The position numbers and the translations under genes are program-made. 64,000 nucleotides of DNA, from assembly GCF_028621955.1 (NCBI RefSeq), contig NZ_CP117516.1:2316001-2380000 (forward strand). Direction: 5' to 3'. Source of the DNA: Erythrobacter sp. BLCC-B19. GTDB taxonomy: Bacteria > Pseudomonadota > Alphaproteobacteria > Sphingomonadales > Sphingomonadaceae. Positions within the stretch are counted from its first letter, which is position 1; the number at the start of each line of letters is the position of its first letter. Below, piece by piece: positions 16,722 through 64,000 of the stretch. The notes beneath the pieces were generated by a model that did not search any database, was not told where the DNA came from, and saw only the letters and a program-made list of their open reading frames with translations.

Positions 16722-16785
16722 GGCGCGGATAGGATGGCAGATGCGCGAGGCAAGGTGAAGGGGGTTCTCCCCTATCCCTCGCGCC

Positions 16786-17319: not shown

Positions 17320-18479
17320 GGGGCGGTCAGCGCGAGCAGCTTGGCGTCCTTGCCGTCCTCGGCCACCCACAACGTCCCGTCCGGCCCCTGCGCCAGCGCG
17401 CGCAGGCGGTTGTCGAACTCATAGCGGGTGACTTCGCGCGCGGACTCGCCGTCCAGCACGACCTCGACCAGCGCCTGCGAGCCAAGGCCCGCGATCAGCG
17501 CGCGGCCCTGCCAGCCTTTGAACATCGCGCCCGAATAGAACAGCATATCGCCCGGCGCGATCACCGGGCTCCAGCTCAGGGCAGGCTGGGCAAAGCCATC
17601 ATCGGCAGTGTGATCGGGGATGTTGTCGCCATTGTAGTGGTCGCCATTCGAGCGTACCGGCCAGCCATAATTGGCACCCGGCTTGACGAGGTTCAGCTCG
17701 TCCCCGCCGGCCGGGCCGTGTTCGACTTCCCACAGACGCCCTTGCGAGTCCCAGTCGATCCCGAGGATGTTGCGGTGGCCATAAGACCAGATTTCCGCCG
17801 TCACGCCGCCCTTGTCGGCCATCGGATTGCCCGCAGCGGGGGTGCCATCGATGTTGAGGCGCACCACCTTGCCCAGCGTCGCGCCGGTGTCCTGCGAGGG
17901 CTTGCCCTTCTGGCGTTCTCCGCTGGCGACATAGAGATATTGGCCATCGGGCGAGAACAGCAGGCGGTGCGAATAATGCCCACGGCCCGTCACCTTGGGC
18001 GATTGCCGCCAGATCACCGCAAAGTCGCGGATCTCGCACGAGGTCGGCGATCCGCACACCAGCGTTCCCTTGCCGACCGCCGCGCCGCGGGTGTCGTTCT
18101 CGCCCGCTTCGGCGAAGCTCAGATAGATCGTGCGGTCGCTCACCATCGCCTTGGATTGGGTGGGCAGGAAGGCGACATCGCCCAGCCCGCCCTGACCGCC
18201 GTAATCGACCGCAGGCACGCCGCTGACCGTCCCGATGGTGCCGGTCTTGGTGTCGATGAACTTGAGGGTGCCTGCCTTCTCGGTCACGAACAGCACCGGG
18301 GTGCCGGGGGCGAAGGCCATCGCCCAAGGCTCCTGAAACTCGGCCACTTCTCGGATGGCGAAAGGCGTTTGTGCCGCCGTCGCCTCAGCGGTGCTTTCCC
18401 CGGTTTCGGCATTCGCACAGCTTGCCAGCGGCAGGACGGCGGCGGAAAGGAGGGTGAGGAAGCGAGCAGAACGGATCAT
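17316..18479 (-). CDS. PQQ-dependent sugar dehydrogenase-like lipoprotein
   Basis: A 387-residue protein from ATG 18479. The signal peptide ends in LPLASCANA, a lipobox, so it is probably anchored in the periplasm or outer membrane. The body is a six-bladed soluble glucose/aldose dehydrogenase-type propeller, with EPWAMAFAP, GQGGLGDVAF, GRGHYSHRL, SYGHRNILGI and WEVEHGPAGGDELN. The usual WxxEHGPxGGDE signature is clear. It would oxidise a sugar using PQQ, but no PQQ biosynthesis gene is in the window. Its ATG overlaps the divergent rnhB ATG. Confidence 0.9.
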   Translation of the reverse strand: MIRSARFLTLLSAAVLPLASCANAETGESTAEATAAQTPFAIREVAEFQEPWAMAFAPGTPVLFVTEKAGTLKFIDTKTGTIGTVSGVPAVDYGGQGGLGDVAFLPTQSKAMVSDRTIYLSFAEAGENDTRGAAVGKGTLVCGSPTSCEIRDFAVIWRQSPKVTGRGHYSHRLLFSPDGQYLYVASGERQKGKPSQDTGATLGKVVRLNIDGTPAAGNPMADKGGVTAEIWSYGHRNILGIDWDSQGRLWEVEHGPAGGDELNLVKPGANYGWPVRSNGDHYNGDNIPDHTADDGFAQPALSWSPVIAPGDMLFYSGAMFKGWQGRALIAGLGSQALVEVVLDGESAREVTRYEFDNRLRALAQGPDGTLWVAEDGKDAKLLALTAP

Positions 18480-19101
18480 GCGAGGGGTCACTCCGGGTTT
18501 GACGGCATCAGGCCGGCGGCTGGTCATCGGCGTCGACGAGGCGGGGCGCGGGCCGCTCGCCGGGCCGGTGGTGGCTGCGGCCGTGGTTCTGGGCGCGGCG
18601 ATACCGGCAGGGCTCGACGATTCCAAGCGGCTTTCCGCAAAACGCCGCGCTGGGCTCGACGAAGCGATCCGGGCCAGCTGCGGCTGGGCGGTGGCGGTGG
18701 TCGAGCCGGACGAGATCGACCGGGTCAACATCTTCATGGCGACGATGCTGGCGATGACCCGCGCCGTGGCGAGCCTTGCGGGCGCGCTGGACGCAGCGCC
18801 CGGTGAAGTGCTGATCGACGGCAACATGACCCCCGCTGGCCGCTGCGCCGAATGGTGCTGGCCCGCCCGCGCGATCGTGGGCGGGGACGGGATCGAGCCC
18901 TGCATCTCCGCCGCCTCGATCATCGCCAAGGAATGGCGTGACCGGCTGATGCTGGAGGCCGCCGAGGCGTTCCCGCATTACGGGTGGGAGCGCAACAAGG
19001 GCTATGGCACCGCCGAACACATGGAAGCGCTGCGCCTGCACGGGCCGAGCCCGCTCCACCGCCGCAGCTTCGCGCCGGTCGCGCAGGCGGTCTTGATCTG
19101 A
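18478..19101 (+). CDS. rnhB: Ribonuclease HII
   Basis: A 207-residue enzyme that cleaves RNA in RNA-DNA hybrids and removes single ribonucleotides from DNA. The active-site motif VIGVDEAGRGPLAGP (Asp20, Glu21), LDDSKRLS, the third Asp in VLIDGN and SIIAKEWRD are present. ATG 18478 is the closest in-frame start to the domain. It overlaps the ATG of the divergent dehydrogenase gene, so each gene's 5' signals lie inside the other. rnhB next to ccrM is a conserved alphaproteobacterial arrangement. Confidence 0.93.
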   Translation: MRGVTPGLTASGRRLVIGVDEAGRGPLAGPVVAAAVVLGAAIPAGLDDSKRLSAKRRAGLDEAIRASCGWAVAVVEPDEIDRVNIFMATMLAMTRAVASLAGALDAAPGEVLIDGNMTPAGRCAEWCWPARAIVGGDGIEPCISAASIIAKEWRDRLMLEAAEAFPHYGWERNKGYGTAEHMEALRLHGPSPLHRRSFAPVAQAVLI

Positions 19102-28024: not shown

Positions 28025-28306
28025 ATGGACTTCATCTCAATTCTCAGCATCTTCGTGCTGGCCTGCTTCGTGGGCTATTACGTTGTCTGGTCGGTGACCC
28101 CGGCGCTGCACACCCCGCTGATGGCGGTGACCAATGCGATCTCGTCGGTGATCATCGTCGGCGCGCTGATCGCTGCGGCCGAGGCCGAGAACCCGGTGGC
28201 GAAGTATCTCGCGCTCGCGGGCGTGGTGATGGCCAGCATCAACATCTTCGGCGGCTTTGCCGTGACCGAGCGAATGCTCGCGATGTACAAGAAGAAGGAG
28301 AAGTAA
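28025..28306 (+). CDS. pntAB: NAD(P) transhydrogenase subunit alpha-2 (membrane part)
   Basis: A 93-residue membrane protein with three hydrophobic helices (FISILSIFVLACFVGYYVVW, then TNAISSVIIVGALIAAA, then LALAGVVMASINIFGGF). VTPALHTPLMAVTNAISS is the family signature of the small alpha subunit, which forms half of the proton channel with PntB. It sits directly before pntB with a 4-base gap. The ATG at 28025 is preceded by an AGAGGGG-type site. Confidence 0.95.
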   Translation: MDFISILSIFVLACFVGYYVVWSVTPALHTPLMAVTNAISSVIIVGALIAAAEAENPVAKYLALAGVVMASINIFGGFAVTERMLAMYKKKEK

Positions 28307-28310
28307 TCCC

Positions 28311-29765
28311 ATGACCTTCTCCATCCTTTCGGCGGCCGCGCACGGCGGCGGCACCCCGGCCTGGGCGATGCTTGCCTATCTGGTCGCGGGCGTGTTCTTC
28401 ATCCTCGCACTGCGCGGGCTTTCGAGCCCCGCCAGCAGCCGCGCGGGCAACCGCAACGGCATGATCGGCATGGCGATTGCCGTGGGCACGACGCTGGTGA
28501 TGCACGGCACCAACCTTGTCGAGATCGGCATTGCCATCGCCATTGGCGCGATCCTTGGCGTGACCATCGCGCGGCGCATCGCCATGACCGCGATGCCCGA
28601 ACTGGTCGCGGGCTTCCACTCGCTGGTCGGTTTGGCCGCGGTGGTGGTGGGCCTCGCCGCATGGCTCAATCCTGCCGCCTTCGGGATCACCGATGCGGCG
28701 GGGCAGATCATGGCGGTGAGCCGGGTCGAACTCGGCCTTGGCATCGCCATCGGGGCGATCACCTTCTCGGGTTCGGTGATTGCGTTCCTCAAGCTTTCGG
28801 GCCGCATGAGCGGTTCGCCGATCATGTTGCCGGGACGGCACGTCATCAACCTCGGCACGCTCGCCGCAATCCTCGTGCTGATCGGCCTCTACACCGTCTC
28901 GCCGGTCGGCGGGGCGGGTGAGGGGTGGATGGTGATTGCAGTCACCGTGCTCGCCTTCATCATCGGCTTCCTGCTGATCATCCCGATCGGCGGGGCGGAT
29001 ATGCCGGTCGTCGTCTCGATGCTGAACTCCTACTCGGGCTGGGCGGCAGCGGCGATGGGCTTCACGCTGGGCAACAGCGCGATGATCATCACCGGGGCGC
29101 TGGTGGGTTCTTCGGGCGCGATCCTCAGCTACATCATGTGCCGCGCGATGAACCGCAGCTTTATTTCCGTGATCGCGGGCGGCTTCGGTGCCGATGCGGG
29201 CGCAGGCGGCGGGGCCGGCGGTGCGCGCGAACAGCGCCCTTACAAGCAGGGCAGCGCCGAAGACGCGGCCTATATGCTCGAACAGGCCGAGAAGGTCATC
29301 ATCATCCCCGGCTACGGGATGGCGGTCGCCCAGGCCCAGCACGCGCTGCGCGAAATGGGCGACAAGCTCAAGGAAAAGGGCGTGGAGGTGAAGTATGCCA
29401 TCCACCCCGTCGCGGGCCGTATGCCGGGGCACATGAACGTGCTGCTGGCCGAAGCCAGCGTTCCTTACGATGAAGTCTTCGAACTCGAAGACATCAACTC
29501 CGAATTCGCCCAGTGCGACGTCGCCTTCATCATCGGCGCGAACGACGTGGTGAACCCCGCCGCCAAGACCGACAAGTCCAGCCCCATCTACGGGATGCCG
29601 GTGTTCGACGTCGACAAGGCCAAGCAGGTGTTCTTCATCAAGCGCTCGATGGGGGGCGTGGGCTATGCCGGGGTCGACAACGACGTGTTCTACATGAACC
29701 AGACCGTCATGCTGCTCGCGGATGCGAAGAAGATGGTCGAGGAAATCGTCAAGTCGCTCGATTAA
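28311..29765 (+). CDS. pntB: NAD(P) transhydrogenase subunit beta
   Basis: A 484-residue subunit holding most of the membrane domain and the NADP(H)-binding domain III. About nine transmembrane helices occupy residues 15-275. The C-terminal third contains VIIIPGYGMAVAQAQHALRE, the Rossmann-type NADP site, and KRSMGGVGYAGVDNDVFY. Residues 295-310 form a Gly/Ala-rich linker (DAGAGGGAGGAREQ) between the domains. It completes the operon aa3-IV, pntAA, PH-domain, pntAB, pntB. Confidence 0.96.
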   Translation: MTFSILSAAAHGGGTPAWAMLAYLVAGVFFILALRGLSSPASSRAGNRNGMIGMAIAVGTTLVMHGTNLVEIGIAIAIGAILGVTIARRIAMTAMPELVAGFHSLVGLAAVVVGLAAWLNPAAFGITDAAGQIMAVSRVELGLGIAIGAITFSGSVIAFLKLSGRMSGSPIMLPGRHVINLGTLAAILVLIGLYTVSPVGGAGEGWMVIAVTVLAFIIGFLLIIPIGGADMPVVVSMLNSYSGWAAAAMGFTLGNSAMIITGALVGSSGAILSYIMCRAMNRSFISVIAGGFGADAGAGGGAGGAREQRPYKQGSAEDAAYMLEQAEKVIIIPGYGMAVAQAQHALREMGDKLKEKGVEVKYAIHPVAGRMPGHMNVLLAEASVPYDEVFELEDINSEFAQCDVAFIIGANDVVNPAAKTDKSSPIYGMPVFDVDKAKQVFFIKRSMGGVGYAGVDNDVFYMNQTVMLLADAKKMVEEIVKSLD

Positions 29766-29835
29766 GCATCGCGCCTGAAGGGAGGCTGACCTACCTACGG
29801 CTTCCCGGCGATGTGAGACAGAGACTGAGATTCTG

Positions 29836-30177
29836 ATGAAGAAACTGCTGATTGGCCTTGTGCTGATTATCGCCCTGGGGGCCGGAGCCTTGTTCTCCGG
29901 CCTCGCCAACCCGCTGGTCGAAATGCAGGTCAAATCCGCGCTGGTCGAATCCGGCATCGGCGAAAAGAACGCCCAGTGCATGGCGGAACGCATGGTCGAC
30001 CGTCTCAGCATCGGCCAGCTGTGGAAATTGCGACAGGGCATGGCCGCACAGGATGGCGAGCCCGAGGAAGGCTATGGCCTCGGCGAACTCGTCAAGCGGC
30101 TCAACCGGGTGGGTGATGGCGAGGCAGTGGCGGTGCTTTCGACCTCTGCCGGGCTATGCGCCATCGGGCTGGGGTAG
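29836..30177 (+). CDS. Small exported or membrane-anchored protein, unknown
   Basis: A 113-residue protein from ATG 29836. The first 25 residues (MKKLLIGLVLIIALGAGALF) form a signal peptide or anchor. The rest is a short helical domain with two Cys (QCMAERM and GLCAIG) that could form a disulfide. I recognise no family. It lies between pntB and the beta-helix gene on the same strand, with 70-base gaps, and may be independent. Confidence 0.65.
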   Translation: MKKLLIGLVLIIALGAGALFSGLANPLVEMQVKSALVESGIGEKNAQCMAERMVDRLSIGQLWKLRQGMAAQDGEPEEGYGLGELVKRLNRVGDGEAVAVLSTSAGLCAIGLG

Positions 30178-48236: not shown

Positions 48237-48537
48237 GGCTGGATGCTCCAAATTGGTCGGGCCTGTTGGCGGAGCGCTATAGCGTCCCGGCGGGCAGGCG
48301 CAATCGCGGTGATGGGGCTTGTGCACCGGCAGGGGTAGCGGTCTTGGTTCGCGATGGTGTCACATTCCTGTCGCGAGACCTGCACGAATGTAACCTTGTT
48401 GCAACAACTGCCACAAGAACGCCGTCCAGTGGCGACATCCACGCAACAACATGGGTCTGTCGCCTCGCGCGAATCGCGCAAAAATGTCACCGCGCGCTCC
48501 ACCCACTCTCCATTCGTCCAAACCAGGGGGTTGTTCG
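48237..48537. promoter_or_regulatory. Divergent promoter region between purS and a TonB receptor gene
   Basis: No gene is seen in these 301 bases. A perfect 12 bp palindrome, TTGTTGCAACAA, lies at 48396-48407 and could be an operator for the receptor gene. Confidence 0.55.
48396..48407. promoter_or_regulatory. 12 bp perfect palindrome, candidate operator
   Basis: TTGTTGCAACAA is self-complementary over 12 bases. It lies about 130 bases upstream of the TonB receptor start. The binding protein is unknown. Confidence 0.45.
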
Positions 48538-50766
48538 ATGACACACCGCTTTTCTGCCATTCGTGCCGTATGGGCCGGTTCGACCGTGCTCGCCGCTGCC
48601 GCCTTCGGCCTTGCCGCACCTGCCGCCGCGCAGGATGAGGCTGCCGCGACCGAGGCTGACGGACAGCTTGCCACCATCATCGTGACCGCCAACCGGCGCG
48701 AGGAAAACCTGCAGGATGTGCCCGTCTCGGCTGACATCCTCGATGCCGAGCGCGTCACCGCGATCTTCAGCGCCACGGCCGATATCACCGCGCTGGCCGG
48801 CACCGCGCCGGGCCTTAACGTCGAAAGCTCGAACGGCCGCGTCGCCCCGCGCTTCTACATCCGCGGCCTCGGCAACACCGATTTCGATCTCGCCGCATCG
48901 CAGCCGGTCTCGGTGCTGCTCGACGATGTCGTGATGGAAAACGTCACCCTCAAGAGCTTCCCGATCTTCGATGTCGAACGCGTCGAAGTGCTGCGCGGGC
49001 CGCAGGGCACGCTGTTCGGGCGCAACACCCCGGCAGGGATCGTCAAGATCGACTCGGTCAAGCCCAGCCACGACACCAGCGTCAATGCCGCCCTGTCGTT
49101 CGGCAGCCTTGATACCTTCGCCCTGAGCGGCGCGGTAGGCGGCTCGATCGTGCCCGATGTGCTCGCTTTCCGCGTTTCGGCCCAGCTCCAGAGCCGCGGC
49201 GACTGGATCAGCAACGGCTTCACCGGCGATGAAAATTCGCTCGGCGGCTATGAAGACGTCGCGGTGCGCGGCCAGTTGCTGTTCACCCCCACTGAGCGGG
49301 CGAGCATCCTTGCCGCGGTCAATTTCCGCGACCTTGCCGGTTCCTCGACCTTCTTCCGCGCCAACATCCTCGGGCCGGGCAACAACAACCTCAACGCCAA
49401 TTATGATCGCGACACGGTGTTCTATGATGCCGGGGGCGGGAACAAGGCGAACTACCAGCAGTTCGGCGCGACGCTGACCGCGTCCTACGAATTCGACGGC
49501 GCGACCCTGACCTCGATCACCAGCCACTGGACCTCCGAAGGCTCCAGCCGCGGCGACATCGACGGCGGCTTTGGCGCGGTGTTCCTGCCGGGCGGCGGCG
49601 GGCCGGGCCTGATCCCGTTCCCCTCGGACACGCAGGATTCGATCGACCTCAAGCAGACCACGCAGGAAGTGCGCCTCGCCTCCAACGGCGACGGCCCGCT
49701 CAGCTGGCAGGTTGGCGGCTTCTATTTCGACAGCGATTTCGACGTCTCGACGGTCGGCTTCACCTTCCCGCCGCCGGTCACCGTCAATCACACCAACGAG
49801 GCTTGGGCGCTGTTCGGGCAGGTGTCGTACCAGCTGACCGAAAAGCTGCGCGTCACCGGCGGCCTGCGCTACACCGATGACGAAAAGGACTTCGTTGTCC
49901 TCTCGGGCGCTGCGCCGCAGCCGCGCAGCGTGGGCGATGAAAACATCGACTGGGACATCAGCCTGTTCGGCGACGTCACCGACAACGCCAGCGTCTATGC
50001 CAAGGTCGCCAATTCGTTCCGCGGCCCGACCATCCAGGGCCGCGACGTCGCCTTCTTCAGCGCGCCTTCGGTCGCCCAGTCGGAGAACATCACCTCCTAC
50101 GAAGTCGGCTTCAAGAGCGAGCTGGCTGACCGCCGCGTGCGGTTGAATGGCGCGGCCTATTACTACACCGTCGATGATCCGCAGTTCACGGCTGTGGGCG
50201 GCGCGGGCAATCTCGTGCAGCTGATCAACGCCAACAAGGGCGAAGCGTGGGGCGTGGAAATGGACGGCGCGTTCCAGATCTCGCCCGAGTTTCTGGTGAC
50301 GCTTGGGGTCGCCTACAACAACACCGCGATCAAGGATTCGACCCTTGCGGTGGGCACCTGCTTCCAGTGCACTGTGACCGACCGCACCGTGACCTTGGGC
50401 GGAGCGACCCGCGCGCTGGTGAACAACAATCCCTTCCCCAACGCACCCGAATGGAGCGGCGATTTCACCGCGCGTTATAGCATCCCGGTGGGCAATTCGG
50501 GTGAGTTCTTCATCTTCACCGACTGGGTCTATCTCGGCGAGACCAACTTCCTCCTCTACGAAAGCCGCGAATTCAACGCCGGCAGCCGGATCGAGGGCGG
50601 TCTGAAGATCGGCTATGCGGGCGATAACGGCCAGTGGGAAGTTGCCGCCTTTGCGCGCAACATCACCGACGAGGACAACGTGCTCGGCGTGATCGACTTC
50701 AACAACAACACCGCTTTCGTGAACGATCCGCGCATCATCGGCGCGATGGTGAGCGTGAAGTACTAA
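48538..50766 (+). CDS. TonB-dependent outer-membrane receptor
   Basis: A 742-residue receptor. The signal peptide (to about residue 32, PAAAQ) is followed by a TonB box-like ATIIVTANRREENLQDVPVS. The plug domain holds PRFYIRGLGNTDF and VERVEVLRGPQGTLFGRNTPAG. The 22-strand barrel ends in IIGAMVSVKY with the aromatic C-terminal residue needed for assembly. This is the sphingomonad type of receptor for siderophores, sugars or other large solutes. No ligand is suggested by neighbours; the downstream M16 peptidase is convergent. Confidence 0.93.
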   Translation: MTHRFSAIRAVWAGSTVLAAAAFGLAAPAAAQDEAAATEADGQLATIIVTANRREENLQDVPVSADILDAERVTAIFSATADITALAGTAPGLNVESSNGRVAPRFYIRGLGNTDFDLAASQPVSVLLDDVVMENVTLKSFPIFDVERVEVLRGPQGTLFGRNTPAGIVKIDSVKPSHDTSVNAALSFGSLDTFALSGAVGGSIVPDVLAFRVSAQLQSRGDWISNGFTGDENSLGGYEDVAVRGQLLFTPTERASILAAVNFRDLAGSSTFFRANILGPGNNNLNANYDRDTVFYDAGGGNKANYQQFGATLTASYEFDGATLTSITSHWTSEGSSRGDIDGGFGAVFLPGGGGPGLIPFPSDTQDSIDLKQTTQEVRLASNGDGPLSWQVGGFYFDSDFDVSTVGFTFPPPVTVNHTNEAWALFGQVSYQLTEKLRVTGGLRYTDDEKDFVVLSGAAPQPRSVGDENIDWDISLFGDVTDNASVYAKVANSFRGPTIQGRDVAFFSAPSVAQSENITSYEVGFKSELADRRVRLNGAAYYYTVDDPQFTAVGGAGNLVQLINANKGEAWGVEMDGAFQISPEFLVTLGVAYNNTAIKDSTLAVGTCFQCTVTDRTVTLGGATRALVNNNPFPNAPEWSGDFTARYSIPVGNSGEFFIFTDWVYLGETNFLLYESREFNAGSRIEGGLKIGYAGDNGQWEVAAFARNITDEDNVLGVIDFNNNTAFVNDPRIIGAMVSVKY

Positions 50767-50816: not shown

Positions 50817-50846
50817 AGCCGGCAGGGGGCGACCTGCCGGCTTTTT
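50817..50846. terminator. Strong terminator shared by convergent genes
   Basis: AGCCGGCAGG at 50817-50826 pairs perfectly with CCTGCCGGCT at 50833-50842, followed by five T residues. A second hairpin (CCGCCCC/GGGGCGG) lies at about 50782-50800. They end the receptor transcript; the T run abuts the stop of the leftward M16 gene. Confidence 0.9.
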
Positions 50847-53743
50847 CATTTCTCCGCTGCAGGCGCGGCGCCAGCGGCGCCTTCGGGCAGCACGGTGAAT
50901 TCGACCGCGCCATCGGGCACCAGATATTTCAGCGCCATCCGGTGAATATCCTCAGGCGTGATCGCGGCCATGATGCCGGGCGCGTCGAAATATTCGGCGA
51001 TATTCTCCGGCTCGCTCTGCGCGCGCGAGGCGAGGGTGATCCACCCGCCCAGATCCTTCAGGTAATTGTTATAGCTTTCGAAATAGGGCTTGCGCGCCCG
51101 TTCGATGATATCGGGATCGAGCGGCCCGGCACGCAGGTCGGCGATCAGTTGCGCAAGCGCGGCGCGGCTCGGTTCGACCTGATCGACCGCGACCGAGGTG
51201 CTGATCGTGAAGGTGCCGAAGCCGGGATAATGCTCGCTGGTGTCAGAGCCCGCCGAGGGCGAATAGGCCTGCCCCAACTGCTCGCGCAAGCGGTCGGTCA
51301 ATTCCAGTCGCACGATCCGGGCGAGCAGGTTGAGCCGCAGGGCTTCCGCCTGATCGCTGTCGTCCGTGGTCGGCCAGACCCAATTGAGCAGCGCCTGATC
51401 GGCCTCGCCCTGATGGGTCAGCATTTTCTGCCCGCGGGTCTTGGTGAAGCTGACGATCCGCGCTTCGGGGCGAGGCTGGAACTCCGCCTCGCGCGGGGGC
51501 AGCGCGCCGAAGGTCGATGCGACCGCCGCGATCGCTTCGCCCTCGTCGAGATCACCCGCCAGCCCGATCTCGATCGCGCCCGATTGCAGGCGGTCACCGA
51601 TCACGCCCTTGAGCTGGTTGAAATCGAGCGCGAAGAACTCCTCCTTGGGACGCAGGGCAAAACGCGGGTCGCCATCGTGGATGACCCCGCCCTGCGCCGC
51701 CGCCAGCGCGCGGGCAGGGGTGGAGGTGAGGGTGTTGAAGAAGTTGTCGATCCCCTTGCGGAACCGCTCGACCGCCTCGGGCCGGTAGCCGGGATCGGTG
51801 ATCAGCGCGGCGATGACCTGCATCTGCAACAGCAGATCGCGCGGGGTGGTGATGGCCGAGGCGGTGAAGGCGTCGGTATCGCGCCCGAAGCTGAAACCGA
51901 CGCTGCGCCCTGCCAGCATCGTCGCCAGCTCGTCACGGCTGTGCTTGCCAAGCCCGCCGCCTTCCAGCGATCCCGCCAGATAGGTCGCCAGCGGCGCTTC
52001 CTTGGTGTTCAGCAGGTTGCCGCCGTCGAGCGCGAGCGAAAAGGCAATCCGATCCTTGCGCACATCGGTGCGCTTGAGGTTGAGCCGCACGCCATTGGCA
52101 AACACGATGCGGCGGATGCCGAGGCGTTCCTCGAGCGTATCGGACACGATCGTTCCGGGCGTGCCGAAATCGCTGTAGCCGAACACCAGCGGACCGGTGT
52201 CAGCGGGCGCGGCGATGGCGAGCGCCATGCCTTCGTCGAAGGCCGCGCGCAGGGCCGCCTCGCCGCCATCGGGTGCAGAGCGACCCTCGAACCGGATCAG
52301 CGGCTCCTCAAGTGGCGCAGCGTCGGCTTTCACGGCCTGCCAAAGCGCTTGCGGGGTCAGTTCCGGCGCGAGGCGCTCGAATTCTGCGAGCTGCCATTGG
52401 GGCGTGGTCGGCACCCGCTCGTCGCTTGCCAGCCCGAGCGCGCCGCCGACGAAAACGGCATTGCTGCGCGTGTCGGCCGACTTCACCGCGTTCTCCAGCG
52501 ATGTGCGGATATTGGCGAGTTGTTCGTCGACCTCGGCCTGGGTGAAGCCGTAGGTCAGCGCCTGATTGACCTCGCGCACGGCGGCCAGCATCCCCTTTTT
52601 CCACTCGCCATCTGCGCTGCTGATGCCGAGGCTGGTGATGCGCGCTTCCTCGAAGATGTCGCCGGTGCCGTAGCTCGCGGCGCGAAACGGCGCGTCGCCT
52701 GCAAGGGCAAGGCGCGCAAGGCGCCGGTTGATGATGCCATAGCCGACGCTGCGCAGCAGATCGGTGCGGCGATTGGCGATGGTGTCGGGCTCGTCGCGCC
52801 ACGGCGCAAGGCGGCTGATCGATGCGCTTTCGGCAAGTGCCGGATCGAGGTGAATGTCGGTCTTGCCTTTGGCGGTCACATCGATCGGGCCGACCTCGGG
52901 CTCGGCGGGGGCAGGGGCCGGTGCCCAGTCGGCAAAGCGCGCCTTGATGGCGGCCTCGACCACGTCGACCGGATAGTCGCCGACCACCACCAGCACCGTG
53001 TTGGCGGGGGTGTAAGTGCGGCGGTAGAGCGCCCGGATCTGCTCTGCCGTGGCCTTCTCCAGCACCTCCAGCGTGCCGATCGGGATGCGGTCGCCATAGC
53101 GCGCGTCGGGGGCGAGGAATTCGACATTGTCCTCGAAATTGCGCTGCTGAAAGCCCGCCCGGTCGCGCCGCTCTGCCAGGATCACGCCGCGCTCGCGATC
53201 GACCGCACCTTGCGTGATGGTAAGCTCGCTCGCGGTCTCGCGCATCAGCATCAGCGCGGTGCCCAGCAGTGCCTCGTCATTGCGGGGCAGGTTGAGCATA
53301 TAGGTGATCGCCTCGAACCCGGTCGAAGCATTGGTGTCGGCGCCGAAGGCCAGCCCCTCGCGTTCGAGCAGCTTGACCATTTCGCCCTCGGGGATGCCCT
53401 TCGATCCGTTGAAGGCCATGTGTTCGAGATAGTGGGAGAGGCCGCGTTCGGTCTCGGTTTCCTCCAGCGCGCCCGAATCGATCCGCATCCGCACCAGCGC
53501 AGTGCCCGCCGGGGTGGCATTCTGGCGGATGACATAGCGCATCCCGTTCGGAAGCTGCCCGAAGGTGTATCCCGGATCGACCGGCACATCGCTCGTCTCG
53601 AAGGCCCAGACCGGTGCGGGGGTGGTGGTCGTGGTGGTGGCGGGCGCTTCGGCGGCGGGGGCATCCTGCGCGGCAAGCGCGGTGCTGAAGGCAAGCGGTG
53701 ACAGCGCCAGCAGCAGGCCGGCGGCAAGGGGGAAATTCCGCAT
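50846..53743 (-). CDS. M16 family zinc metallopeptidase
   Basis: A 965-residue exported peptidase. The signal peptide (MRNFPLAAGLLLALSPLAFSTALA) is followed by an Ala/Thr/Pro linker. The inverted zinc motif HYLEH is at 104-108 (RGLSHYLEHMAFNG), and the downstream glutamate region is in place. It has the duplicated-half architecture of insulinase/pitrilysin-type proteases, with an active N-terminal half and an inactive C-terminal half. Located in the periplasm, it may clear small peptides such as used signal or lasso-type peptides. ATG 53743 was chosen over 53779 because of the signal peptide. Confidence 0.93.
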   Translation of the reverse strand: MRNFPLAAGLLLALSPLAFSTALAAQDAPAAEAPATTTTTTPAPVWAFETSDVPVDPGYTFGQLPNGMRYVIRQNATPAGTALVRMRIDSGALEETETERGLSHYLEHMAFNGSKGIPEGEMVKLLEREGLAFGADTNASTGFEAITYMLNLPRNDEALLGTALMLMRETASELTITQGAVDRERGVILAERRDRAGFQQRNFEDNVEFLAPDARYGDRIPIGTLEVLEKATAEQIRALYRRTYTPANTVLVVVGDYPVDVVEAAIKARFADWAPAPAPAEPEVGPIDVTAKGKTDIHLDPALAESASISRLAPWRDEPDTIANRRTDLLRSVGYGIINRRLARLALAGDAPFRAASYGTGDIFEEARITSLGISSADGEWKKGMLAAVREVNQALTYGFTQAEVDEQLANIRTSLENAVKSADTRSNAVFVGGALGLASDERVPTTPQWQLAEFERLAPELTPQALWQAVKADAAPLEEPLIRFEGRSAPDGGEAALRAAFDEGMALAIAAPADTGPLVFGYSDFGTPGTIVSDTLEERLGIRRIVFANGVRLNLKRTDVRKDRIAFSLALDGGNLLNTKEAPLATYLAGSLEGGGLGKHSRDELATMLAGRSVGFSFGRDTDAFTASAITTPRDLLLQMQVIAALITDPGYRPEAVERFRKGIDNFFNTLTSTPARALAAAQGGVIHDGDPRFALRPKEEFFALDFNQLKGVIGDRLQSGAIEIGLAGDLDEGEAIAAVASTFGALPPREAEFQPRPEARIVSFTKTRGQKMLTHQGEADQALLNWVWPTTDDSDQAEALRLNLLARIVRLELTDRLREQLGQAYSPSAGSDTSEHYPGFGTFTISTSVAVDQVEPSRAALAQLIADLRAGPLDPDIIERARKPYFESYNNYLKDLGGWITLASRAQSEPENIAEYFDAPGIMAAITPEDIHRMALKYLVPDGAVEFTVLPEGAAGAAPAAEK

Positions 53744-53829
53744 GGAAATCAGGCGTCTCTCTCGGGTCATTGGCGACACCTGAGAGACTAGCGCGCAAAA
53801 CCGGCCTGTCAGCCTATTTCTTGAGCGGC

Positions 53830-56590: not shown

Positions 56591-56836
56591 TTACTGCGGG
56601 CCGGGGCCGCCGCGACCCGGCATGAAGCGGTAGGTGATGCGCGCCTTGGTGAGATCGTAGGGCGTGAGTTCGCACAGCACTTCATCGCCGACCAGCACAC
56701 GAATGCGGTTCTTGCGCATCTTGCCCGCCGTGTGGCCGAGCACTTCATGGCCGTTTTCAAGCTCCACCCGGAACATCGCATTGGGCAGCAACTCAACCAC
56801 GCGCCCGCGCATTTCGAGGAGTTCTTCCTTGGCCAT
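56591..56836 (-). CDS. infA: Translation initiation factor IF-1
   Basis: An 81-residue S1-fold protein that binds the 30S A site during initiation. [45 protein letters not shown] is nearly invariant. It is about nine residues longer than the usual 72 because of a Gly-rich tail (GRGGPGPQ). It leads the operon of maf, RNase E/G and yacG. Confidence 0.97.
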
Positions 56837-56978: not shown

Positions 56979-57052
56979 ATTCTTTGCAGACATGATTATG
57001 CGCGGGCCGGCAGCCACAGGCTGTCGCCGCCAGACTGATTCGAAGGGACACA

Positions 57053-60000
57053 ATGAACCTCTCCCCGCTTTCCCGCGCGGCGTTGCGCGCTGGCACCTGC
57101 GCTGTCGCGCTGGGGCTGGCCCTGCCGATTGCCGCTGCGACCACGGCCATCGCTCAGCCGCAGCCTGAACCTGCTGCGCAGCCGGAGGAAGAAGAACCCG
57201 ATTCCGCAAGCGACACCTCGACGGCAACTGGCGGCGAAATCATCGTCCGGTCGGGGCGGCTGCGCGGGCAGCTGTTTGTCGATCAGGCGCCGCTGCTCGA
57301 ACTCAATGAAGAAGCGATCGCGGCCGAGGGCGTGACCTCGATCACCGATCTCATCGCGCAGATCAGCGCGCGCACCGGCTCGGCACGCGGGCGTGGCGGC
57401 GGCGGGCCGGTGATTCTGGTGAACGGCATCCGCATCGGCAATTTCCGCGAATTCGCCAACTATCCGCCCGAAGCCCTCGCGCGGGTCGAGGTGTTCCCCG
57501 AGGAAGTCGCCCAGCGTTTCGGCTTTCCGCCCGATCGCCGGGTGATCAACCTGATCCTCAAGGACAATTATTCGAACCGCCAGGCCGACCTCGAATTCGA
57601 GGCACCCTCTCGCGGGGGATACAGCCGCAACGAAGAGCGGCTCGGCGTCCTCAAGATTGCCAATGGCGGGCGCATCAACGCCAGCGTGCAGATCGAGGAC
57701 ACGACCCTGCTGACCGAGGCCGAGCGCGACATTCCGCAGACGGATGGTTCGCAGTCGCTGGTGGCAGGCGATCCCGATCAGGCCGATTTCCGCAGCCTGC
57801 TGGCCGACAGCTTCGGGCTCGACGCCAATGTCTCCTGGGCCAAGGCGATCATCGACAGCGGCACCTCGTTGTCGGCCAACCTCAACTATGCCCGCAATGA
57901 AAGCCGCAGCCTCGACGGTCTCAATACTGTCACGCTGACTTCGCCCGGCGGCGCGAGCGCGCTGCGCACCTTCGGGGCGGACACCCCGCTCGCCCGGCGC
58001 ACGTCGAGCGACACGGTCTCGGCGGCAGGATCGATCAATCAGCCGATCAATGCCTTCCGCCTCACCACCACCTTCGACGGTTCCTACAGCGAGAGCGAGA
58101 CCGAAATCGACCGGCGGCTTTCGTCCACGCAGCTGCAGGTGTTCCGCGATGCGGCGGCGGCGGGCACGCTCGCGCTTAATGGCCCGCTGCCGACTGACAC
58201 CGCCAACGGTTTCGATGTGGCGCGCAGCAAAATCATCTCGACCGAGACTCAGACGACCCTCGAAGGCCCGCTCGCCGAACTGCCTGCAGGCGAGGTGCTG
58301 GCGACCTTCGATCTCGGCTTTGACTGGAAGCGCATCGAAAGCAGCGACACGCGCTCTGCCACGGGCGCGGCGCTGACCCGTCGGCGCATTTCGACCGGCA
58401 CCAACCTGGTGGTGCCGCTGACCAGCACGCGCGACGAGTTTCTCGATGCGCTCGGCGACTTCACGCTCAACCTTCAGGCCGGGTTCGAAGACCTGAGCGA
58501 TGCGGGCACGCTGGGGGATTGGAACGCCGGCATCACCTGGAAGCCGGTCGATGGGCTCGACCTCTCGGCGACCTATATCTGGCGCGAATCCGCGCCGTCG
58601 ATCTCGGCGCTCGGCAATCCGCAGGTGACCAATTTCAACGTCCCCGTGTTCGATTTCGTGCGCGGCGAGACGGTGCTGGCCGAAGTGCTGACCGGCGGCA
58701 ATCCTGACCTGCCGGCCGAAACCCAGCGCGACTGGAAGTTCTCGGCCAACTGGGAGCTGCCCTTCTGGGAAGGCTCGCGCCTGGCGGTGGATTACATCCG
58801 CAACCGCTCCGACAACGTGGTCAGCGCCTTTCCGCAGATCACCGCGGATATTGAAGCGGCCTTCCCGGGCCGGATCACGCGCGACGCATCGGGCCGGGTG
58901 ATCCGGGTCGACCGGCGCTCGGTGAGCTTTGCCTCGACCAGGGCAGACCGGTTGCAGTTCACCTTCTCGACCAATGGCAGCATCGGCGCACCGGCTGAAG
59001 GGCAGGGCGGGCCGGGTGGTGGCCGTTTTGGCGGCGGCGGCGGTGGGGGCGGCGGCGCTCCGGCAGCGGCGGCGGCCCAGCCTGCACCGCCGACCACCGG
59101 CGCTCCGCCTGCGGGCGCAGGCGCAGGCGCGGGAGCCGGTGCGGGCGGGGGCCGGTTTGGCCCCGGCGGCGCGGCACCCACGCCTGAGCAGCGCGAACAG
59201 TTCATGGCCTTCCGCGCGCGGCTGTGCGCCGATGACGGGCAGGCCTTCCTCGAAAAGCTCGTCGCCGCGATCGACAGCGGCGCGGATATCTCGGCCGAGT
59301 TTCCGGGGATCGACCCGGCGCGGCTCGCCCCGATGCTCTCGCGGATCCGCGGGGCAGACGGCACAATCGATCCGGCCCGGCTGGCGCAATTCCGCACCCG
59401 GATTTGCAGCATCGACCCGGCGATGATGGGCGGCGCGCCCGGCGGTGCGACCGATTCCGGCACGCAGCGCGTCACGATTGTGCCCATCACCCCTGATCCC
59501 AATGCTCCGGCCAGCGCTGGCAGCACGCCCCCGCCATTCGCTGGCTTCCGCGCGCGGGCCTGCGGCCCCGATGGCACGGCTGCCATCGCCGCGCTGGTCG
59601 CCAAGATCGACCGGGGCGAGGACGTCTCGGCCGAGCTTCCCGGCGTCGATCCCGCCTTCATCAAGATGGCGCTCGACCGCTCGCGCCTGCCCGACGGCAC
59701 GATCCCGCCCGAGGCGCTGGCGCAGTTCCAGCAGCGCTTCTGCGCGGCGGCACCGCAAGGCGCAGGCGGCCCGCCCGCTGCGGCTGGCGGCGCGCCCGCT
59801 GGCGGCCCGGCCTTCAACCCGCTCGCAGGCGGGCGGCAGATGCAGGGCTGGCGCTATTTCTTCAACCTGACCCACACGATCGAACTCGACAACGAGATCC
59901 TGATCGCGCCCGGTATTGCCCCGCTCGATCAGCTTGACGGGCAGGCGACCGGCGCCTTCGGCCAGCCGCGCCATTCGAGCCGGCTCGAAGCGGGCCTGTT

Positions 60001-60322
60001 CGGCAAGGGCGTGGGCTTCCGCCTCTCGGGCATCTACACCGGCGAAACCCGGCTCGACGGATCGGGCCTGCCCGGTTCGACCGACCTGTTCTTCGACGAC
60101 CTGGTGACCTTCAACCTGCGCATCTTTGCCAACATGGGCGAAGTGACGGGCAAGAACGAGGGCGTCTTCAAGGACTTCCGCGTGAGCCTTGTCGCCGACA
60201 ACCTGTTCGACGCGCAGCGCCGCGTGCGCGACAGCAACGGGGACACGCCGGTCAACTACCAGCCCTTCGTGATCGACCCGCTCGGGCTCTATCTCGGGAT
60301 CGACCTCAGAAAGCTGTTCTGA
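57053..60322 (+). CDS. TonB-dependent receptor with an inserted duplicated Cys domain
   Basis: A 1089-residue outer-membrane receptor. A signal peptide to about residue 36 is followed by a plug domain with VILVNGIRIGNFREF and LARVEVFPEEVAQRFGFPPDRRVI. The barrel starts near residue 180 and ends DPLGLYLGIDLRKLF. Residues about 647-940 are an insertion: a Gly/Ala/Pro-rich linker, then two copies of a 70-residue unit with Cys725/Cys785 and Cys837/Cys897. Each unit has C-X59-C and shared residues DG, LVA, ID, SAE, PG, DPA, DGTI and LAQF. It probably lies in an extracellular loop; its ligand is unknown. Confidence 0.88.
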   Translation: MNLSPLSRAALRAGTCAVALGLALPIAAATTAIAQPQPEPAAQPEEEEPDSASDTSTATGGEIIVRSGRLRGQLFVDQAPLLELNEEAIAAEGVTSITDLIAQISARTGSARGRGGGGPVILVNGIRIGNFREFANYPPEALARVEVFPEEVAQRFGFPPDRRVINLILKDNYSNRQADLEFEAPSRGGYSRNEERLGVLKIANGGRINASVQIEDTTLLTEAERDIPQTDGSQSLVAGDPDQADFRSLLADSFGLDANVSWAKAIIDSGTSLSANLNYARNESRSLDGLNTVTLTSPGGASALRTFGADTPLARRTSSDTVSAAGSINQPINAFRLTTTFDGSYSESETEIDRRLSSTQLQVFRDAAAAGTLALNGPLPTDTANGFDVARSKIISTETQTTLEGPLAELPAGEVLATFDLGFDWKRIESSDTRSATGAALTRRRISTGTNLVVPLTSTRDEFLDALGDFTLNLQAGFEDLSDAGTLGDWNAGITWKPVDGLDLSATYIWRESAPSISALGNPQVTNFNVPVFDFVRGETVLAEVLTGGNPDLPAETQRDWKFSANWELPFWEGSRLAVDYIRNRSDNVVSAFPQITADIEAAFPGRITRDASGRVIRVDRRSVSFASTRADRLQFTFSTNGSIGAPAEGQGGPGGGRFGGGGGGGGGAPAAAAAQPAPPTTGAPPAGAGAGAGAGAGGGRFGPGGAAPTPEQREQFMAFRARLCADDGQAFLEKLVAAIDSGADISAEFPGIDPARLAPMLSRIRGADGTIDPARLAQFRTRICSIDPAMMGGAPGGATDSGTQRVTIVPITPDPNAPASAGSTPPPFAGFRARACGPDGTAAIAALVAKIDRGEDVSAELPGVDPAFIKMALDRSRLPDGTIPPEALAQFQQRFCAAAPQGAGGPPAAAGGAPAGGPAFNPLAGGRQMQGWRYFFNLTHTIELDNEILIAPGIAPLDQLDGQATGAFGQPRHSSRLEAGLFGKGVGFRLSGIYTGETRLDGSGLPGSTDLFFDDLVTFNLRIFANMGEVTGKNEGVFKDFRVSLVADNLFDAQRRVRDSNGDTPVNYQPFVIDPLGLYLGIDLRKLF
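59201..59746 (+). repeat. Tandem domain duplication within the receptor gene
   Basis: Two diverged copies of about 210 bases, 59201-59413 and 59537-59746, encode the paired C-X59-C units. They are separated by an Ala/Pro/Thr-rich spacer of about 40 codons, so duplication is ancient rather than recent. Confidence 0.8.
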
Positions 60323-60341: not shown

Positions 60342-61157
60342 TCAGCTGATGCTGGTGCGCGGGAACATCCACTGGTGGATCAGCGCGGGCGTGAAGGGCG
60401 TCCATTGCCCCTCGGCCTGCGCCAGCCGGTCGGCGATGGCGATCATCACGCTGGGGTTGACGCCAAGCCCGCAATGGCTGGCGTGAACCTGGATGTTCTC
60501 GGTCGGCTGCTCGGCAGCCGCCTTGTCCGGGTGCTGCACGCTGCCGCGCCAGTGGACCACCCCGTCGGTCTTGGTGAAGATCGAGGTGGTGGGCACGGGC
60601 GGGGCTTCATCCAGCCCCCGGAACCGCCCGCCCTTCATCGGCTCGGGCTCCTTGCCGTTGAGCAGTTCGAACAGCCGCGCCGCGCTGGTGTGGCCGCGAT
60701 CATCCGAAATCGGGCTGCCGAGGCTGATCACCAGCCGCACCTTTTCGGGATGGAGCTTGGCCAATTCGCGCGCCAGCACCCCGCCGAGGCTCCAGCCGAC
60801 CAGCGAGACTGTGCGCCCGCTTGTCTCGAACAGCCGCGTGAGCTGCGCCTCCAGCCGCCCGATCAGGGCATTGTCGACCCGGATATTGCGCCCCGAATCC
60901 CAGCCGTGGGCATCATATCCCAGCCGCTTCAGGATATTGCGCATCGGCACGGTCGAGGAATTCGAGGCCATGAAGCCCGGCAGCACCATCACCGCATGGC
61001 CATCCCCCTTGGGCAGCGAGGCCATCAGCGGGCGCGAGGCGTAGAGCAGGCCCAGCTCCAGCATCGCCCGCCCTTCGATCAGCGTCCACAGCCGGTGCGG
61101 CGGCTCGGCCTTACGGGGGGCGGTGTCCGCCGGGTTCATCGCAAGGCTGGCCATCAT
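60342..61157 (-). CDS. Alpha/beta hydrolase, lipase-like
   Basis: A 271-residue esterase/lipase with VMVLPGFMASNSS, the nucleophile VGWSLGGVLAREL and a His near QVHASHCGLGVNP. SLGSPISDD follows the elbow. This pattern matches poorly characterised triacylglycerol-lipase-like proteins. It overlaps the WS/DGAT acyltransferase gene by 4 bp, so the pair may handle storage lipids together: one making and one breaking neutral lipid esters. Confidence 0.87.
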   Translation of the reverse strand: MMASLAMNPADTAPRKAEPPHRLWTLIEGRAMLELGLLYASRPLMASLPKGDGHAVMVLPGFMASNSSTVPMRNILKRLGYDAHGWDSGRNIRVDNALIGRLEAQLTRLFETSGRTVSLVGWSLGGVLARELAKLHPEKVRLVISLGSPISDDRGHTSAARLFELLNGKEPEPMKGGRFRGLDEAPPVPTTSIFTKTDGVVHWRGSVQHPDKAAAEQPTENIQVHASHCGLGVNPSVMIAIADRLAQAEGQWTPFTPALIHQWMFPRTSIS

Positions 61158-62689
61158 GCATTCTCCTTCGAGGCGCGGCGCTTGGTGGCGGCGGGCTTGG
61201 TTGCTTTGGGTTTGGGTTTGGGTTTGGCTTTGGGTTCAGGCTTGGTCGTGGCAGCAGGTGCGGCCTCCAGCACCCGCGCGGCGGCGAGCAACTCGTCGAA
61301 GCTGTCCTGCAGGCACTGCGAATAGAATTCAGGGTCAGGCATGATGTCGCGGCAGGCGGTGAAGCTGATATAGGCCTCCCCGACATAGGACTGGACGACA
61401 TGGGCAAGGCCCAGCCCGTCGGTAAGGCAGATCAGCGACAGCGCCATGCTCTCCAGCCGTGCGCCGCTCGAATAGATGTGCACCGGCGGGCCGGGGACGT
61501 TGGTGACGACCGTGTTGAACGGCATCGCCAGCCGGTGCGCGAGGCTCACCCGGCTGAACAGCTGCGCGCCCAGGGCCATGTAGAACAAGGGGTTGACCTT
61601 GCTCACCTCGGTCATCCGCCGTGCGCCCAGGGCATTGGTCATCGCCTTGGAATTGTTGGTCTGACCATAGACATAGGCCAGCCGCTCCGCCGGGTCGGCG
61701 ATATGCGTGCCGAGCGGGGCGATCATCGCGGCGACCTGATTGCCCATGTCGCCCTTCTCGTCCGACGCGCGCACCGAGATCGGGGCCATCGCGGTCATGG
61801 TCGCCTTGGGCAGATCGCCCTTGGCGCTGAGGTATTTGTGCAAACCCCCGCCGATCACCGCGATGGCGACGTCATTGACCTTGGCCTCCGGCAGCAGCGC
61901 GCGGATCGCCTTGAATTCCTTGAGATCGAAGGTGCGCCCCTCGACCACCCGGTGCGGCGAGATCGTGCGGTTGAAGCGGGTGCGCGGCGGCACGAGATCG
62001 GTGCTGAGCTTGAAGTCCTTCGAAATCAGCCCGCGGATCACGCCTGCCACCCCCGGCACCGCCTTGGCCGCGACCTGCGCCTGCTTCAGCGGATTGAGCA
62101 GCGCGTTGAAATAGGACTTGCCGAGCAGTTCCACCGGGCCGGGGATCTTCTCCGGCTTCCACGTATCGGGCTTCGATGGCGGCGGCGCGTCGGGGGTGAG
62201 GGTGTGGAGCGCCTCCATCAGGTCGATCCCGCTCATCCCGTCGATTGCGGCGTGGTGGACCTTGGTGACGAAGGCGAAGCAGCCGGGCGGATAGCCTTCA
62301 ACCGCGTCCAGCCCCTCGACCACGGTGAACTCCCACGGCGGGCGATTGAGATCAAGCGGGCGGGCATGGATGCGCGCCGCCTGAATGCACAGCTGCCGCC
62401 AGTCCCCCGGCTTGGGCAGGGCGACATGGCGGACGTGATATTCGAGATCGAAGTCCGGATCCTCGACCCAGTAGGGATAATCGAGATCGAACGGCACCCG
62501 CACCAGCCGCTGGCGCATGGTGCGCGACAATTGCATCCGCGATCCGATGAACTGGAGAATGTCCTTGAACCGCACGAACCCGCCCGGGGCGGTCGCCGGA
62601 TTGTAGATCAGGACAGAGCCGATATGCATCGGCGAATTCGGCGATTCCAGCGCGACGAACGAGGAATCCATGCCTTGCAACTGACGCAA
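61154..62689 (-). CDS. Wax ester synthase/diacylglycerol acyltransferase family protein
   Basis: A 511-residue acyltransferase that would esterify alcohols or diacylglycerol with acyl-CoA. The active site HHAAIDG is at 145-151. TTG 62689 was chosen because it restores the family N-terminus (RQLQGMDSSFVALE) and follows a GGGAGAG site. C-terminal residues from about 480 form a basic tail of KP-repeats (KAKPKPKPKAT), encoded by a TTTGGG-type hexamer run on the other strand. It overlaps the lipase-like gene by 4 bp. Confidence 0.92.
   Translation of the reverse strand: MRQLQGMDSSFVALESPNSPMHIGSVLIYNPATAPGGFVRFKDILQFIGSRMQLSRTMRQRLVRVPFDLDYPYWVEDPDFDLEYHVRHVALPKPGDWRQLCIQAARIHARPLDLNRPPWEFTVVEGLDAVEGYPPGCFAFVTKVHHAAIDGMSGIDLMEALHTLTPDAPPPSKPDTWKPEKIPGPVELLGKSYFNALLNPLKQAQVAAKAVPGVAGVIRGLISKDFKLSTDLVPPRTRFNRTISPHRVVEGRTFDLKEFKAIRALLPEAKVNDVAIAVIGGGLHKYLSAKGDLPKATMTAMAPISVRASDEKGDMGNQVAAMIAPLGTHIADPAERLAYVYGQTNNSKAMTNALGARRMTEVSKVNPLFYMALGAQLFSRVSLAHRLAMPFNTVVTNVPGPPVHIYSSGARLESMALSLICLTDGLGLAHVVQSYVGEAYISFTACRDIMPDPEFYSQCLQDSFDELLAAARVLEAAPAATTKPEPKAKPKPKPKATKPAATKRRASKENA
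61205..61240 (+). repeat. TTTGGG-like hexamer tandem repeat
   Basis: Hexamers TTTGGG, TTTGGG, TTTGGG, TTTGGC, TTTGGG and TTCAGG follow without gaps. On the other strand this encodes the KP-repeat tail of the acyltransferase. The G runs could form a G-quadruplex on the plus strand. Confidence 0.75.
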
Positions 62690-62834
62690 GGTTCTCTCCC
62701 GCTGACCGCCCCTCCAGCGGGGCGGCTTCGGCCCGTGTTCGGGCTCTGGTGCTAGGGCTAAGCGTAATGGAACGGCAAAGCAACCTGACGCGAACGGCAG
62801 GAATTGCCGCGGGGGAAGGTTTCGCGCAATTTCC

Positions 62835-64000
62835 TTACGCCCAATGGGCCTCGGCCAGCGCTTCGGCGCAGGCATGGGCGCTGGCCCAGGCCCATTGGAA
62901 GTTATAGCCGCCGAGCCAGCCGGTCACATCGACCGCCTCGCCAATGGCATAGAGGCCGGGGACCTTGGCGGCCTCCATCGTGCGGCTGGAAAGCTCGGCG
63001 GTGGCGATGCCGCCTGCGGTGACTTCGGCCTTGGCATAGCCCTCGGTGCCATTGGGGGCGAAGCGCCAGTCGGCGAGTTTGGATTGGGCGGCGCGCAAGT
63101 CCTTGTCGGAGATGTTGCCCAGTTCGCGATCCAGCCCGAGCCGGTCGGCCAGCGCATCGGCGAGGCGGTCGGGCAAGCGTTCCCTGAGCAGGGTGCGAAG
63201 GTGCGTGCGAGGGCGGCTGTGCTTGGCTTCGATCAGCCAGTCGGTCGCGGCATCGGGCAGGAAAGTGATCCCCACCGCCTCGCCATGCCGCCAGTAGCTT
63301 GAAACCTGCAATATGGCCGGGCCGGAGAGCCCCTTGTGGGTGAACAGCGCGGCCTCGGCGAATTCGGCTGTCCCTGCGCGGGCCAGCACCGGGGCGGCAA
63401 CGCCGGAGAGTTCGCGGAACAGCGTCTCTTCGCCGCCCAATGTCAGGGGAACAAGGGCGGGGCGGGGCTCGACCACCTTGAGGCCGAATTGCCGCGCCAG
63501 CCGATAGGCGAAATCGGTCGCGCCCATCTTGGGGATGGACGGCCCGCCGGTGGCGATCACCAGCGCGGGGGCTTGCCACTGGCGGCCATCTTCGGCGGTG
63601 ACGATGAAGCGACCGTCTGTGCTGCGTTCGACAGTCTGTGGCGCGGTTTGGCAGCTTATTGTCACGGTTTCGGCGGGGCATTCCGCCAGCAGCATCGCCA
63701 CGATCTGCTTGGCCGACCCGTCGCAGAACAGCTGGCCGAGGGTCTTTTCGTGCCAGGCGATGCCGTGCCTTTCGACCAGCGCCAGAAAGTCGGCCGGGGT
63801 GTAGCGGGCCAGCGCGCTCTTGGCGAAATGGGGATTGACGCTGAGATAGTTCGCTGGCCCCGCGCCGAGATTGGTGAAATTGCACCGCCCGCCGCCCGAG
63901 ATCAGGATCTTCTTGCCCGGCGCCTCGGCCTTCTCCAGCACGGCGACCCTGAGGCCGCGCTGGCCCGCCTGCCCGGCGCAGAACAGTCCGGCCGCTCCCG
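62835..64000 (-). CDS. HI0933/BaiN-family flavoprotein, N-terminus beyond the window
   Basis: An FAD-dependent oxidoreductase. The frame stays open to base 64000, so the start and most of the first FAD-binding segment are missing. GLFCAGQAGQRGLRVAVLEK-type sequence precedes GKKILISGGGRCNFTN, the family hallmark. GKGLSGPAILQVSSYW-like sequence (THKGLSGPAILQVS) and VDVTGWLGGYNFQWAWASA close the protein. Members reduce unsaturated ring or acyl substrates; BaiN acts on bile-acid intermediates. The physiological substrate here is unknown. Confidence 0.92.
   Translation of the reverse strand, partial: GAAGLFCAGQAGQRGLRVAVLEKAEAPGKKILISGGGRCNFTNLGAGPANYLSVNPHFAKSALARYTPADFLALVERHGIAWHEKTLGQLFCDGSAKQIVAMLLAECPAETVTISCQTAPQTVERSTDGRFIVTAEDGRQWQAPALVIATGGPSIPKMGATDFAYRLARQFGLKVVEPRPALVPLTLGGEETLFRELSGVAAPVLARAGTAEFAEAALFTHKGLSGPAILQVSSYWRHGEAVGITFLPDAATDWLIEAKHSRPRTHLRTLLRERLPDRLADALADRLGLDRELGNISDKDLRAAQSKLADWRFAPNGTEGYAKAEVTAGGIATAELSSRTMEAAKVPGLYAIGEAVDVTGWLGGYNFQWAWASAHACAEALAEAHWA

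Follow-up and report, generated by a model that had tools for sequence, protein, structure and literature searches.

A TonB-dependent receptor of Erythrobacter sp. BLCC-B19, encoded in a stretch of 64,000 nucleotides (the window), contains within its barrel sequence an insert with two related, cysteine-paired units. The whole arrangement is best explained, with a probability that we put slightly above even, as a tethered docking module in the periplasm, in which two disulfide-closed domains would be attached to turn T8 of a vertically inherited receptor. The gene and its putative TonB box are located as follows:

57053..60322, plus strand: open reading frame of the TonB-dependent receptor, with divergent plug and barrel, 1089 aa
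57236..57256, plus strand: putative TonB box EIIVRSG, residues 62-68, from the family profile alignment to the N-terminal DTLVVTA of BtuB

The receptor is a distant member of its class. Its match to the barrel family PF00593 (30.9 bits, cut-off 27) is the lowest of the 49 such matches in the genome, and the Pfam scan gave a weak Plug match of 19.9 bits, below the cut-off of 23.9. Among 32 relatives that lack the units, 26 match Plug at E≤0.01 (best 1.1e-07), and the best solved-structure match of the profile made from these relatives is BtuB (E 1.2e-06). Furthermore, the profile alignment with BtuB and the receptors of the own genome places the protein among the TonB-dependent barrels (E 3.3e-32). 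The segment EIIVRSG lies opposite DTLVVTA of BtuB, which we take to be the TonB box of that protein, and is the candidate TonB box of the receptor. An N-terminal signalling (secretin/STN) domain was not found in the Pfam search at E≤1, where Plug alone matched. A long antisense open reading frame (56996-59974) overlaps the receptor gene; since the plus frame of the receptor is under purifying selection, the antisense frame explains nothing that is needed.

Orthologues of the receptor are present in 110 of 114 genomes of the genus, including 93 of the 93 of good quality, and in 222 of 397 genomes of the family (E≤1e-60). The sample used for comparison consists of best matches and of loci fetched from the match lists and thus represents a part of the matching genomes, of which there are 110 in the genus and 222 in the family. 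It comprises 208 loci, 200 of them distinct, and 196 receptors could be mapped. The right flank is absent from the other four (L079, L103, L115 and L128), of which L103 ends early and L115 and L128 are taken as contig fragments. In L079, which belongs to the same genus, two overlapping frames share the receptor between them, with the break in or close to the insert; the gene may be broken there, or the GC-rich repeats may have caused a sequencing error.

The initial annotation had described an insert of undescribed function that interrupts the receptor at 58991-59830, with a Gly/Ala-rich linker and two related units whose cysteines are exactly 60 residues apart. Frame and coordinates are correct (residues 647-926 of the ORF 57053-60322), and the insert is real, as seen from the flank profiles and from 41 of the 196 mapped relatives, which have a short cysteine-free, Gly-rich loop of 32-115 residues at the same site. 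The linker and both units are likewise borne out by the sequence and by the unit alignment. The insert spans residues 638-933 according to the flank profiles and about 642-931 according to the strands, and is composed of the following parts:

58949..58975, plus strand: strand 16, the last before the insert, residues 633-641; alternating hydrophobicity moment 2.68; aligned to BtuB GVEATANFD
58976..59197, plus strand: linker 1, Gly/Ala/Pro-rich, residues 642-715
59198..59419, plus strand: unit 1, residues 716-789, with Cys 725 and Cys 785; 121.7 bits with profile A1
59420..59533, plus strand: linker 2, residues 790-827; the part with the lowest conservation, at a mean of 0.24 identity to the window in 60 genus receptors
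59534..59755, plus strand: unit 2, residues 828-901, with Cys 837 and Cys 897; 105.7 bits with profile A1
59756..59845, plus strand: linker 3, residues 902-931
59846..59887, plus strand: strand 17, the first after the insert, residues 932-945; alternating hydrophobicity moment 2.00-2.08; aligned to BtuB PLTHTVSYDY

Each unit has about 74 residues, and the two align ungapped over 78 residues with 41 identical positions (53%; E 3e-25 for that single comparison). The units are small, probably helical and, with a median net charge of −2, weakly acidic. A glycine 15 residues ahead of the second cysteine is present in 248 of 252 units, and polar and arginine positions are conserved within the unit as well. 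In 97 receptors with two units the three linkers have median lengths of 65, 25 and 35 residues, linker 1 ranging from 39 to 89. Where no unit is present (e.g. in L123 and L132), the turn left bare is a loop rich in glycine and arginine, with a median of 54 residues and a median net charge of +3.

Apart from Cys 16 in the signal peptide region, the four cysteines of the units (725/785 and 837/897, both pairs exactly 60 apart as initially noted) are the only ones in the receptor. The insert contains zero, two or four cysteines in 41, 58 and 97 of the 196 mapped receptors, respectively, and an odd number in none; no p-value is attached to this parity, as the 196 receptors are related and not independent. 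Outside the insert a cysteine past residue 70 occurs in just three of the 196, at ORF residues 77-99, where the start codons are uncertain. Because the cysteines of the insert are never odd in number, a unit very probably forms a mini-domain of its own that is clamped by one disulfide; such a bond inside each unit is the part of the proposal that we predict with the highest confidence. Oxidising machinery is encoded in the genome, with one match to DsbB and three to Thioredoxin_4 (DsbA-like). The spacing is exactly 60 in 156 of the 252 units; in 63 units it is 37-44, and in the last 33 it lies at 47-64. Given this range of 37-64 in the remaining units, the value of 60 is a trait of the window's own lineage and does not hold for the domain in general.

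The initial annotation had taken the insert for a probable surface domain; it would then be part of an extracellular loop and catch a ligand or a partner protein on the outside. This was not borne out. When a trimmed profile of 48 receptors was aligned with BtuB, FhuA and receptors of the own genome, the flanks of the insert fell on strands 16 and 17 of BtuB (Prob 98.5, E 1.8e-14), with RLQFTFSTNG opposite BtuB GVEATANFD and GWRYFFNLTHTIEL opposite BtuB GPLTHTVSYDY. In TonB receptors the external loops are numbered L1-L11 and the periplasmic turns T1-T10 (PMC6694100, in the part of the text consulted), and an insert between strands 16 and 17 therefore lies in turn T8. In 24 comparison rows this turn has 3-14 residues, with a median of 4; the 24 include two rows (L304 and L309) that seem to have been read in the wrong frame. 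The hydrophobicity peaks are compatible with 16 strands before and six after the insert, which leaves the chain end in the periplasm; the scan gave 44 peaks above the threshold without calling strand 22, and the count of 22 strands is our own assignment. The untrimmed profile alignment conflicts with this placement, as it sets BtuB strand 17 on receptor strand 16 and leaves receptor strand 17 opposite a gap; on that reading the insert would lie outside the cell. The trimmed alignment was preferred because Gly-rich loops attract false matches, which is a matter of judgement. On these grounds a periplasmic insert in turn T8 is predicted with good confidence. Long inserts of barrel proteins are usually external, which together with the untrimmed alignment speaks for a surface domain. 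The trimmed alignment to BtuB and the six assigned strands that follow the insert, with a periplasmic chain end, make such a domain improbable.

The conservation of the units bears on the same question. In a comparison of the window with its 20 nearest two-unit relatives, the median omega is 0.10 for unit 1 and 0.16 for unit 2, against 0.21 for the barrel before and 0.18 for the barrel after the insert; the linkers gave 0.15, 0.33 and 0.12, values with few alignable codons behind them. As judged from these ratios the units are under purifying selection, and among near relatives their omega is below that of the barrel, a further point against an external position. Across the genus, many external loops are at least as well conserved as the units, and the plug is more so: the mean identity to the window in 60 genus receptors is 0.72 for unit 1, 0.69 for unit 2, 0.55-0.84 for the external loops and 0.86 for the plug. 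This genus-wide figure, which falls within the range of the external loops, would also suit a surface domain. The omega values are at the same time an objection to structural filler of little function, in which a Gly-rich turn would tolerate inserts that are kept by drift. Receptors with no unit are common (41 of 196) and the unit length differs among genera (37-64), as would be expected of filler, but unit values of 0.10-0.16, below those of the barrel, and the lack of any odd cysteine count in 196 receptors make it very unlikely.

The units matched none of the families searched. The insert of the window has no match in sequence searches of Pfam, NCBIfam or PDB, the NCBIfam search having taken the window insert alone as query. 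When 42 units were compared with Pfam, 13 families appeared at E≤1, each with at most two members (best E 0.002), and no family was assigned; searches of PDB with the units gave best values of E 0.46 and 0.17, both non-significant. In these searches the unit thus matched no known domain, and by its sequence the insert is not made of regular barrel strands; its function stands as undescribed. Peptidoglycan-binding families (OmpA-like, LysM, SPOR) were matched neither by the insert nor by the units in Pfam. A description of such an insert was also not found in the literature, among papers under open licence.

Calmodulin was among the best solved-structure matches, at non-significant values (E 0.17 and 0.55), and the units share with EF-hand proteins a DG.I.. 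turn that precedes the last helix. An EF-hand identity was rejected, as the set of calcium ligands (D1, [DNS]3, [DNS]5, [ED]12) is present in none of the 252 units.

A free-standing form of the unit, for which a profile search had been proposed in the initial annotation, was found neither in the own genome nor in the genomes of the class and the phylum. At E≤10 units 1 and 2 of the receptor are the sole matches in the own genome. Five of 385 class genomes matched the unit profile, four of them within the family and one outside (E 7.1e-4), as did seven of 299 phylum genomes, six within and one outside (E 4.3e-4). The two matches outside the family are judged to be chance, about 0.3-0.4 being expected for that number of genomes, and the surrounding frames look non-coding. 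Within the family the long-unit profile matches 116 of 397 genomes in 29 of 96 genera. Among the matches listed, the open frames have at least 785 residues, the exceptions being a few shorter frames where contigs are fragmented. The named relatives, at least among the best 80, belong to Erythrobacter/Porphyrobacter, Pontixanthobacter, Qipengyuania, Tsuneonella, Novosphingobium and others. Judging from these sequences, the units are confined to the receptor of one bacterial family in the genomes sampled.

The history of the units was approached with a FastTree tree of 247 distinct units, which is weak as the sequences are short. One group (support 0.80) takes in almost all of the long first units together with 34 of the 38 single long units. 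The second units fall into other groups, which also include the remaining four single long units, and the compact and the 62-64 forms make up a group of 80 (support 0.90). In the compact receptors first and second units do not separate, their identity being 0.48, compared with 0.49 between first units. The tree suggests one duplication before the radiation of the genus and then repeated loss of whole units, unit 2 more often. Units are gained and lost whole.

The receptor gene belongs to the core of its genus and is locked in synteny. Its divergent upstream neighbour is presumably infA, an identity that we take from its protein sequence:

56591..56836, minus strand: infA (translation initiation factor IF-1), divergent from the receptor gene; coordinates taken by hand from the translation

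In each of the 75 named loci that have upstream DNA, this gene lies no farther than 1200 bases upstream of the receptor, and maf and an RNase E/G-like gene are in the same locus rows. Downstream, genes for an alpha/beta hydrolase and a wax ester synthase/diacylglycerol acyltransferase (60342-62875, minus strand) run towards the receptor gene in convergent orientation. Since just 32 of 68 loci with downstream DNA have the hydrolase, a functional tie of the receptor to these two genes was rejected. With the infA side constant and the hydrolase side variable, the receptor is vertically inherited and its neighbours are silent on the substrate.

The window also contains a second, more typical TonB-dependent receptor (48451-50766, plus strand), which scores 102.6 bits with PF00593 and 64 bits with Plug. 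A gene for a two-domain M16 peptidase comes next, in convergent orientation (50846-53779, minus strand). Two further open reading frames, 16302-18806 (plus strand, 834 residues) and 28239-30041 (minus strand, 600 residues), have no Pfam match at E≤1e-5 and may be chance frames.

For the role of the units, several readings have to be weighed. As a tether they would bind peptidoglycan or a peptidoglycan-associated protein and so anchor the receptor or the outer membrane. The periplasmic placement, the long linkers and a copy number of 0-2, which suits avidity for a polymer, agree with this reading, and there is a precedent in OmpM, an outer-membrane porin presented in the part of the report consulted as both tether and nutrient channel (PMC10628300). 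The missing match to peptidoglycan-binding families in Pfam and the slightly acidic units argue against a tether, which would also be odd in one such receptor among 49 barrels, and on the whole we consider it unlikely. In a periplasmic ligand relay the units would take over the substrate on its exit from the barrel and so serve as an integral domain for its hand-off. Their predicted position beneath the barrel and their conserved polar and arginine positions would fit such a role; but the receptor has no known substrate, 41 of 196 receptors manage without units and the downstream genes are not conserved, so that the relay seems a decidedly remote prospect. Tether and relay are the main rivals to the docking module, which leads.

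As a docking module, the two disulfide-closed domains would hang from periplasmic turn T8 on flexible Gly/Ala/Pro linkers, extend on these and grip a periplasmic partner beside the receptor face that engages TonB. A partner held in this way could gain added local affinity or selectivity. First candidates would be the proteins with a TonB C-terminal domain, of which the genome has 12, other envelope proteins coming second. One of the 12 is encoded in the window itself (about 6620-6841, minus strand, 42.9 bits, C1:2322620-2322841). The module is dispensable, since 41 of 196 receptors have no units, and the unit number (0, 1 or 2) might tune avidity and would not be an on/off switch of transport. 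Of the initial proposal that the insert captures a partner, a protein partner is still plausible, but the predicted T8 placement would move the event from the surface to the periplasm. That the insert might function as a docking module is consistent with observations on other receptors. T8 and T9 are labelled next to the sheet of TonB box and TonB in a figure of the FhuA-TonB complex (PMC11658791). Periplasmic loops of HasR are described as adding measurably to the binding of the TonB protein, which takes place even without the TonB box at a more than 30-fold lower affinity (PMC11633176), and periplasmic loops of FoxA as touching TonB (PMC6699858).

A more far-reaching version, which we put forward tentatively and regard as rather doubtful, is a built-in selector or recruiter: a duplicated, disulfide-clamped domain of an undescribed family that would pick one of the many TonB-family proteins, or another envelope partner, for this receptor and define a new class of receptor. 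To our knowledge, TonB receptors carry their extra domains at the N-terminus or on the outside. A conserved domain pair in a periplasmic turn would, if true, be a new way of bringing a partner to a receptor. With 49 receptors and 12 TonB C-terminal domain proteins in the genome, the module would make the pairing of receptor and TonB testable, and the natural series of zero, one and two units offers ready controls.

In comparison with the known systems, the receptor shares with BtuB and FhuA (PF07715 plug, PF00593 barrel) the plug, a TonB-box-like N-terminus and a putative 22-strand barrel, as far as profile alignment and strand assignment go. However, turn T8 has three residues in BtuB and four in FhuA, in contrast to about 290 residues with two domains in the receptor. 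The TonB contacts given in the passages concerned are loops 1, 4 and 10 in HasR (PMC11633176) and residues 316-355 in FoxA (PMC6699858), not T8, which speaks against the docking module. The signalling transporters FecA, FpvA, FoxA and HasR are described, in the portions of the reports consulted, as TonB-dependent receptors with an extra periplasmic domain (PMC11658791; PMC6699858; PMC11633176), as is likewise proposed here. Their extra domain is N-terminal and precedes the TonB box, whereas the two extra domains of the Erythrobacter receptor lie within the barrel sequence.
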